A DNA stretch of 55,080 bases from contig CAIPFK010000093.1 in the NCBI GenBank assembly GCA_903864315.1, positions 1 through 55,080 of the forward strand. The letters are read 5' to 3'. The notes below the pieces were generated by a model. It saw only the letters and a list, made by a program, of their open reading frames with translations. It ran no database searches and had not been told where the DNA came from. Source of the DNA: an uncultured Burkholderiales bacterium (GTDB taxonomy: Bacteria > Pseudomonadota > Gammaproteobacteria > Burkholderiales > Burkholderiaceae_C). A program made the translations under genes and the position numbers. Positions 2,233 through 48,798 of this stretch are shown piece after piece. The first letter of the stretch is position 1; each line of letters begins with the position of its first letter.

Positions 2233-3123
2233 TTAAAAACGAGCGCTCATCAAAATCCAACCCTCTTGAGAGTCAATGACTTGCAAGTCTGCCAAGTCCG
2301 CATAAGCCTCTTGGAGCTCCTGTGCTTGACGCTCCAAGATGCCAGAGAGCACCAACACACCACCCGGGCGCACGAGGCCACACAACAAGGGCGCCAACAC
2401 TTTCAAAGGGCTGGCCAAGATATTGGCAAAAACACAATCGAAGGTGCCTTGGGCCAGGTCGGGCAGGCCCACCTCGATGACGGATGCGACGCCGTTGTCA
2501 AGTGCATTTTGACGGGCGGAATCGACGGCGGCTGGGTCGATATCGACCGCTTGGACAAGCTTGGCACCATAAAGCGCTGCCGCAATGGCCAAGATGCCTG
2601 AGCCACAACCGTAGTCCATGACCCGCTGATGCTCGTGAAACTGTTGCTGACTGCACCACGTCAAACACATGCGCGTGGTCGGATGGGTGCCGGTTCCAAA
2701 GGCCAGTCCTGGATCGAGTCGAATGACTTTATTCGCTACAGCGGGCACCTCGGACCATGTTGGCACCACCCAAAAATCAGGGGCGATGCCGACCGGCTGG
2801 AACTGCGACTGGGTCAAACGCACCCAGTCTTGGTCTTCAACGGTCTTGATGGCCAAGAGCTCCCAGCCAGACAGCGCCTCTTGGGCACTCAACGCCGCTT
2901 GGGCGGCTTGCACACTCGCCTCGTCAGCAAAGAGGCACAGCACGTTGGAGCGCTCCCATGCGTTGACTTCGATCACGCTGCCAGGTTCGCCAAAAATCGC
3001 TTTTTCTTGCTCGGTGTTGGCCTGGGCGTCCTCAACGCTCACGCTCAGCGCGCCCAGTTCGAGTAACGCATCGCTCAAACGCTCTACCAAGGACTCAGGG
3101 GCCAAGAGTTGGAGTTCAATCAT
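2233..3123 (-). CDS. prmA: Ribosomal protein L11 methyltransferase PrmA
   Basis: 296 aa, full length. PrmA trimethylates lysines and the N-terminus of ribosomal protein L11 using S-adenosylmethionine in the cytosol. Visible family features are an N-terminal alpha/beta substrate-binding domain, the [14 protein letters not shown] segment (about 137-150), the SAM-binding motif DYGCGSG (170-176), the acidic motif VDID and the ANILASPL loop (about 233-240). Its ATG overlaps the accC TGA (ATGA at 3123-3120), indicating translational coupling. The accB-accC-prmA order is common in beta- and gammaproteobacteria. Confidence 0.97.
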
Positions 3124-4466
3124 GTGCGTTTTTTAAGCCAAGCTTCTAGGTAGTGAATGTTGGTGCCGCCTTGAATGAACTGGGGGTCTTGCATGATCTC
3201 GCGGTGCAAGGCCACATTGGTGGAGATGCCCTCGACCACCATTTCGGACAACGCAGTTCTCATGCGCGCCAAGGCGTGCTCTCGGGTGTCACCGTGCACG
3301 ATGATTTTACCAATCATGCTGTCGTAATAGGGTGGCACCATGTAGTTGGTATAGGCGTGCGAGTCCACACGCACACCAGGACCTCCCGGGGCATGCCAAG
3401 TGGTGATGCGACCAGGAGAAGGCGTGAACTTGAAGGGGTCTTCTGCGTTGATGCGGCACTCGATCGAGTGCCCCTTGAATTCCACTTGTTTTTGCGTGAA
3501 GGTCAATTTTTCACCAGCGGCGATGCGGATTTGCTGCTGCACAATGTCCACGTGCGTGATGTACTCCGTCACCGGGTGCTCGACTTGAACACGGGTGTTC
3601 ATTTCGATGAAATAAAACTCCCCGTTTTCATACAAGAACTCAAAAGTCCCTGCACCTCGGTAGTTGATCCGCTTGCACGCGGCCACACAACGTTCGCCAA
3701 TTTTCTCAATGAGTTTTCTGGGGATGTGGGGCGCAGGCGCCTCCTCAATCACCTTTTGATGGCGACGCTGCATCGAGCAGTCGCGCTCGCCAAGGTACAC
3801 CGCATTCTTGTGCTGATCGGCAAGGATTTGAATTTCAATGTGACGGGGGTTTTGCAGGTATTTTTCCATGTAGACCGCAGCGTTGCCAAACGCTGCCTGG
3901 GCCTCGGACTTGGTGGTCTGCACCGCTTGCACCAACGACTCCTCGTCGTGCACGACTCGCATGCCGCGCCCACCACCACCACCTGCGGCCTTGATGATGA
4001 CGGGGTAGCCGACCATTTTGGCCACTTTGCGCATTTGCACGGGGTCGCTGGAGAGCTCCCCCTCAGATCCGGGGACACAGGGCACGCCCGCTTTGATCAT
4101 GGCTTGCTTGGCCGCGACCTTGTCGCCCATGATCCGAATGGATTCAGGCGTTGGCCCGATGAAGGCAAAACCGCTTTTTTCAACGCGCTCGGCAAAGTCA
4201 GCGTTTTCACTCAAAAAACCATAGCCCGGATGAATGGCTTGCACGTCGGTGACTTCTGCCGCCGCAATGATGGAGGGCATGCTCAAATAACTTTGCGCCG
4301 AGGCGGCGGGTCCGATGCACACCGCCTCTTCGGCCAACTTCACGTATTTGGCCTCGCGGTCGGCCTCAGAGTAAACCACCACGGCCTTGACGCCGAGCTC
4401 ACGACAAGCGCGTTGGATGCGCAGGGCTATCTCGCCACGGTTGGCGATCAGTATCTTTTTAAACAT
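3120..4466 (-). CDS. accC: Acetyl-CoA carboxylase, biotin carboxylase subunit
   Basis: 448 aa, typical for AccC. It carboxylates the biotin on AccB using ATP and bicarbonate, the first half-reaction of fatty-acid synthesis. It begins [17 protein letters not shown], the biotin-carboxylase N-terminal fold. An ATP-grasp domain follows, with the glycine-rich [11 protein letters not shown] loop and the catalytic [14 protein letters not shown] segment. The C-terminal domain includes [11 protein letters not shown]. The gene lies 11 bp downstream of accB and overlaps prmA by 4 bp, so it is part of one operon. Confidence 0.98.
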
Positions 4467-4477
4467 GGCCAGCCCCC

Positions 4478-4909
4478 TTACTCAATCGCAAAAAGAGGAC
4501 TGCCGTATTCAACGGCTTGCGCGTTTTGTGCAAATATTTGAGTGATGGTGCCACTTTTATCGGCTTCAATTTCGTTGAGAATTTTCATGGCCTCAACAAT
4601 ACAGATGGTGTCTCCCTCGTTGACCACCGAACCAATCTCCACAAAGGCCTTGGCCTCGGGACTGGCTGAGCGATAAAATGTGCCCACCATGGGTGACTTG
4701 ACCGTGTGGGCCGTGCTGGCAACGGGCTCGACTGGCAAAGGCGCACTCGAAGCCACCACCGGGGTACTGTCCAGCGGTGTGATCGTGAGTGGCACCACGC
4801 CCGACGCAGTGCCCGAGGGTATATACTGGGCACCGACACTCTTGACGATCCTCACCTTGCCCTCGGGTTCGGTGATCTCCAACTCGGCCACATTGGACTC
4901 GGAGACCAA
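4478..4909 (-). CDS. accB: Biotin carboxyl carrier protein of acetyl-CoA carboxylase; N-terminus interrupted by an amber codon
   Basis: From a TTG at 4909 this frame encodes 143 aa: a short N-terminal segment, a Pro/Ala/Thr-rich linker, and a biotinyl domain with the biotin-attachment motif EAMKI (Lys109 in this numbering). The homology begins earlier. In the same frame an ATG at 4942-4940 reads Met-Asp-stop-[10 protein letters not shown], matching the canonical AccB start MD(L/I)RK(L/I)K.LI(E/D)LV except that codon 3 is TAG (4936-4934). TAG is a genuine stop in neighbouring genes (PfkB, mpl, the RNB gene). Translation may therefore restart at TTG 4909, or another non-AUG codon, after a two-codon mini-ORF; or the base may be a sequence error. 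I annotate the uninterrupted part. No good Shine-Dalgarno precedes the TTG. AccB is essential, so the gene is presumably functional. Confidence 0.9.
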
Positions 4910-4942
4910 TTCGATCAGTGTTTTAAGTTTTCTCTAATCCAT

Positions 4943-5164
4943 AAGTTTCTATAATTTCAGCTAAAGAGTGGTTAATTTACACCAATTTTGTCCAAAAAGC
5001 ACTAAAAATATATTTTATCATTTAAAAATTTCCATCACCTGGACTTAAAGCCAACCCAATTCCCCTCAACGACAGTAGCGCCCCAAAAAATGGGTTTACC
5101 TTCAATCGCGTATTTTGAGGTTATTTTAAGCGAATTTTGATGAACTTAAGGTGAGATCACCATA
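4943..5164. other. AT-rich spacer between tlpA-like gene and accB, probable accBC promoter region; aroQ absent
   Basis: A gene-free stretch of 222 bp, far more AT-rich than its surroundings, especially 4921-5030. On the minus strand it holds several A/T-rich segments resembling -10 boxes (for example around 5000-5020), but no single -35/-10 pair stands out. In many Burkholderiales and pseudomonads aroQ (3-dehydroquinate dehydratase II) lies immediately upstream of accB. No remnant of it, such as an HGPNLNLLG motif, is visible here. Confidence 0.6.
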
Positions 5165-48426: not shown

Positions 48427-48798
48427 GTGTGAAGCCTGCCGATACGCCGGATTCTGTGCACGCGACTAGACCCGAGGATCTCATCACGCGTGACCGTCAT
48501 TAATCTGGGCCGTGGGTCACCCACACGGCTCGGTGCTACCTACCCGCCTACCATCCTTGCGAAACCACAAGTCAAGCACTCAAGAATGCTTGGGATAGGC
48601 CTACTTGGTATTGCTGCGCGCAGAGATTGCCCGTTTCACCCGCCCACCGGCTTTGCAGTCGATGGGCGACTCGTCTCTGTTGCTCTGATCCTCACCTCAC
48701 GGTGGAGAGGTGTTACCTCCTGCGCCGTTCTGTGCAGTCCGGACGTTCCTCCCGCGCAGTGTTTCCACTCTTGCGCCGGCGACGGCCTAGCATGCTTC
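48427..48798 (-). ncRNA. rnpB: RNase P RNA (A-type)
   Basis: About 372 nt. The RNA processes tRNA 5' ends. The 5' GAAGC (48798-48794) pairs with the 3' GCTTC (48435-48431) as part of P1. Near the 5' end GAGGAACGTCCGGAC matches conserved region I of P4 (usual form GAGGAAAGTCC, one difference). Near the 3' end ACAGAATCCGGCGTATCGGC matches conserved region V and the P1 return. A T run (48426-48420) terminates it. An overlapping short protein-like frame on the minus strand is spurious. Confidence 0.95.

Follow-up and report, generated by a model that had tools for sequence, protein, structure and literature searches.

A TAG codon at the third position of accB in one draft assembly of an uncultured Burkholderiales bacterium, very probably a private single-base change

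In E. coli, AccB, the biotin carboxyl carrier protein (BCCP), is essential and autoregulates. In-frame stops in bacteria are described as mostly short-lived, with a warning about artefacts, in the part of the source used here (PMC7918605). The stop reported below resembles the singleton in-frame stops of genome records, which the same part of that source presents as artefacts or short-lived nonsense alleles, in that it stands alone, in a frame that is conserved in other respects, and is absent from relatives. It differs from them in that it hits the third codon of a gene that is normally essential, as in E. coli. A literature search on an amber codon in accB gave no such title among the matches listed.

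The window, that is, the whole stretch of 55,080 nucleotides that was analysed, belongs to the genome assembly labelled G000; comparison genomes are labelled G005, G011, G021, G031, G032 and so on. The features of its accBC region, with counts from the named loci of a second collection and from the loci of the genus, are as follows:

4940..4942, minus strand: conserved accB ATG start, ATG in 80/80 named and 30/30 genus loci (the window's own included)
4934..4936, minus strand: in-frame TAG at accB codon 3, a Leu codon in 80/80 named loci and 29/29 other genus loci
4478..4933, minus strand: remaining accB frame (biotin carboxyl carrier protein, TIGR00531), open
3120..4466, minus strand: accC (biotin carboxylase), open frame, with its ATG 11 bases after the accB stop
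4973..4984, minus strand: TGGTGTAAATTA box, intact in the window, beginning 42 bases before the accB ATG

Re-checking of the letters gave, on the minus strand, ATG (4942-4940), GAT (4939-4937), TAG (4936-4934) and AGA (4933-4931), followed by AAA, CTT, AAA, ACA, CTG, ATC, GAA and TTG, and the frame stays open until TAA at 4480-4478. This is what the sequence-only reading had described, namely Met-Asp-TAG from ATG 4942 and then a frame open through the biotinyl domain, which lies wholly downstream of the TAG (4484-4708). From codon 4, the accB frame scored 155.4 bits against TIGR00531 (BCCP), above the cut-off of 115.2, and accC, whose protein is 97% identical to its G021 counterpart, scored 743.3 bits against TIGR00514 (cut-off 626.5). 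Because of the TAG at codon 3, an uninterrupted accB frame from the conserved ATG is absent in the G000 assembly, which gave one accB match; no second accB copy was found in it. Pfam PF00364 had eight matches in G000; inspection covered those on contigs C21 and C147, neither being a long-form BCCP, and further ones lie on C10 (three), C107 and C181 (one each). A mis-annotated accB start was ruled out, as the start codon, the second-codon Asp and what follows the TAG all line up with the AccB starts of 80 named and 29 genus loci; the same alignment bears out the earlier statement that the residues around the TAG match the AccB start.

The locus is comparable with other AccB (TIGR00531) genes in accBC operons in its start motif, its length, its biotinyl domain and the accC directly downstream, and its upstream box is common to most genus loci read; the difference is the TAG at codon 3, found in this one assembly. 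Counting the window's own, 25 of the 30 genus loci have the TGGTGTAAATTA box, with at most one mismatch, within 100 bases upstream, and in 21 of these 25 it sits 42-45 bases from the ATG. Its letters look like a putative extended -10 promoter element of accBC.

The genus of G000 is presumably Limnohabitans-like. An accB match was present in 79 of 84 genus genomes, and the stop was found in G000 only, with G031, one of the 79, lacking coverage of the N-terminus. The alignment of accB starts proposed in the sequence-only reading gave ATG, Asp and an intact Leu codon in all 80 named loci (the best 80 of 428 confirmed, among the matches listed), leaving G000 as the sole exception in the 79 genus genomes; the 29 other genus loci read, a set overlapping with the 80, gave the same three codons throughout. 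For the genus and the named loci, this is the outcome that the sequence-only reading had named as its refutation. Of the proposal that the TAG replaces a Leu or Ile codon, the Leu part stood, and Ile was not seen in the loci read. A survey of the family gave matches in 241 of 250 genomes; among the matches listed, a stop was present in G000 alone. Additionally, a degenerate accB-start pattern with TRR at codon 3 had no match in genome_contigs, a collection from which records near G000 may be absent. The same pattern with a Leu codon at this position fitted 80/80 fetched loci, indicating that the TRR version would have caught stops in close relatives at least. G005, G021 and G032, the three nearest relatives, show collinearity with the window for most of the fetched length, and their aligned blocks have DNA identities of about 72-90%. 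Across the genomes and loci covered here, the TAG occurs in one draft assembly alone and was unseen in the relatives whose start was read.

Because codon 3 is intact in the relatives read and G000 is the sole exception, the favoured explanation is that the consensus of this metagenome-type assembly has a wrong base here, which we rate somewhat better than even. The alternative that the TAG is a real, very young private allele in the sampled population is a good deal less likely. The G000 assembly has 3.4 Mb with 2.51% contamination, and its 314 contigs and 89.6% completeness were counted in favour of an error or a private change. Counting against an error, no general excess of errors was seen in the compared parts of the assembly. 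Among 42 ORF alignments of the window with G021, 10 had a stop and, judged by eye, only that of accB lay behind a shared start; this comparison used relatives' ORFs of at least 100 aa, some of which are probably antisense shadows. Neither G005 (29 alignments, 4 with a stop) nor G032 (9 alignments, 2 with a stop) added a further case, and elsewhere in the G000 assembly 57, 16 and 11 alignments contained 9, 3 and 1 stops, none of them clear. By eye, two questionable stops on contig C152 could be set aside, one lying in the wrong frame beside a real gene and the other upstream of the likely start. The flags raised near 48.4-48.9 kb of the window (two frames and a stop) were due to an RNA gene:

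48427-48798, minus strand: RNase P RNA, bacterial class A (RF00010, 193.4 bits against 100)

A frameshift or a generally poor contig was unsupported by the ORF alignments with relatives. One isolated base remains, which suits a lone error and a private mutation alike. The GC content of the fetched G000 contigs ranged from 0.447 to 0.565, which seems wide for one genome, and the bin may be mixed.

The sequence around the TAG bears on its age. Codons 1-12 agreed with each of the three relatives at 32 of 36 bases, whereas the 36 bases just upstream agreed at only 16-17 (ungapped). In codons 4-12 there were two synonymous changes and one D to E. Against the three relatives, none of the 7-8 changed codons among codons 13-40 was non-synonymous; the share was 2 of 22-28 in codons 79-155 but 11-17 of 25-28 in codons 41-78, a stretch in which the three relatives diverge from one another as well. 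A stretch long unread would be expected to drift like the leader, and codons 1-12 have not, suggesting that they were coding until very recently or still are. Since these codons were kept while the leader drifted, three possibilities are left for the TAG, namely a very recent origin, an artefact or read-through. The flanking sequence on either side still looks coding.

A small cluster of private T-to-A changes was observed at the accB start (window 4910-4935, minus strand), which includes the amber and an Asp-to-Glu change at residue 11, where Asp is otherwise invariant (80/80 named and 29/29 genus loci). Of the four private changes within codons 1-12, three were T to A; for the rest of the aligned accB together with the first part of accC, the figure was 4 of 62 (hypergeometric 0.003, post hoc, chosen after the data were seen). 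A single error does not explain three clustered T-to-A changes, which counts against the lone-error reading.

The coding look on both sides of the TAG would also be accounted for if a suppressor or near-cognate tRNA decoded a genuine amber, yielding full-length AccB at a lower level, a possibility to which we give very little weight. General amber recoding had been excluded in the sequence-only reading because TAG normally ends the PfkB, mpl and RNB genes, and both the premise and the exclusion hold: TAG terminates the PfkB, Mur-ligase (mpl-like) and RNB genes of the window and, in all, 4 of 28 conserved window ORFs (the 28 being chosen by the analyst), and RF1 (prfA) is present in G000 with no internal stop (484.7 bits, cut-off 423.25). 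A strong suppressor would lengthen these four TAG-ended ORFs. No CUA anticodon was found among the 26 tRNA matches in G000, a set that is incomplete, as it is without a Tyr, Trp, Phe, Cys, Ile or Asn tRNA; a suppressor tRNA could therefore be missing from the assembly. An ARAGORN selenocysteine tRNA with anticodon tca was noted at G000:C68:6020-6109 (L056); its Rfam tRNA score is weak (29.4 bits). Purifying selection on in-frame stops is reported in bacteria, which would favour read-through, although such stops are mostly short-lived, according to the part of the source used here (PMC7918605). In its fullest form, this explanation would have the population carry the codon-3 amber and live by amber decoding, through a suppressor tRNA outside the assembly or unusually high local read-through, with the BCCP supply set by the frequency of reading; we consider this form just as improbable.

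A real amber might also be tolerated by restarting downstream. The sites concerned are the following:

4907..4909, minus strand: TTG, accB codon 12, the proposed restart, no Shine-Dalgarno match
4853..4855, minus strand: GTG, accB codon 30 behind GAGG, the strongest pairing at a downstream GTG or TTG, present in two of the three relatives

The TTG at 4909 does lie in the accB frame behind the TAG, as had been noted, and is its codon 12. The further proposal that a restart there throttles BCCP was not supported, as this TTG has no Shine-Dalgarno pairing in G000 or in the three relatives and the codons that it would skip are still coding-like. The pairing test is weak, because the conserved accB ATG itself is likewise without a match in G000 and two of the three relatives. 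The scan, which permits long spacings, predicted a pairing of -6.4 kcal/mol for GTG codon 30 and weak ones of -2.9 kcal/mol for CTG codon 9 and -2.5 kcal/mol for GTG codon 18. Together with a biotinyl domain that is fully downstream, these sites are consistent with a shortened AccB made at a lower rate from CTG codon 9, TTG codon 12, GTG codon 18 or GTG codon 30. However, the codon 30 site is also present in G021 and G032 and is thus no adaptation or response to the stop, and a start there would cut off the residues aligned to the N-terminus of the carrier chain in PDB 4HR7, which we take to be the E. coli protein. Codons 4-12, moreover, are still coding-like. A shortened AccB is accordingly improbable in our view, if less so than read-through. 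Of the two earlier alternatives, base error or restart, the base error fits best, G000 being the sole exception, and the restart at TTG 4909 is unsupported.

The geometry of a regulatory mini-ORF is present, in that ATG-GAT-TAG is followed by a TTG 24 bases on, and this two-codon ORF might regulate accBC via termination and restart. Against this stand the lack of a Shine-Dalgarno match at TTG 4909 and the fact that the stop was unseen in any relative searched (genus genomes, named loci and genome_contigs). In the part of the source used here, re-initiation was concluded to be non-dominant in the coupling of E. coli genes, with specific cases still possible (PMC7538156). The regulatory mini-ORF is not supported, and we find it scarcely credible.

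A second biotin-dependent carboxylase was observed on contig C21 (L222, G000:C21, 407-5193), comprising a 72-aa biotin carrier, a biotin carboxylase and a carboxyltransferase. If it had made accB dispensable, accB could be decaying. The carrier was found only in G000 among the 41 genus genomes searched, and for the carboxyltransferase the matches, in eight other genus genomes, were at no more than 29-36%. The carrier scored above the NF004547 cut-off (78.5 against 75) and the biotin carboxylase above that of NF006367 (621.8 against 597). However, they fell below the cut-offs of NF006079 and TIGR00514, respectively, and the carboxyltransferase, whose best NCBIfam match was mmdA, fell far below that of TIGR01117 (351 against 998.8). 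The neighbouring genes, presumably MarR-like and transport-receptor-like, look catabolic, and the remaining accB and accC are open and conserved. The GC content of C21 is 0.485 compared with 0.566 for the window, and the set may have been acquired or may be a bin contaminant. Decay of a dispensable accB thus has next to no probability in our assessment. If part of the genome, the C21 carboxylase could have eased the cost of the amber.

Even when taken together, the explanations that have the cell living with a real stop are unlikely. We consider it very likely that the TAG is a private single-base change, either an error or a young allele, in an otherwise ordinary accB, with no regulatory function of the stop. 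Either way, the accB of this lineage would be an ordinary gene translated from ATG 4942, the stop would be no regulatory element, and the working allele of the population would be one without the TAG. The TAG is true of the assembled letters and probably not of the organism, and when a core gene in a draft assembly shows a single stop, that base should first be verified in the reads. If it were real and fixed, an essential enzyme subunit would be expressed across an early stop, and amber decoding would become testable in an uncultured lineage.
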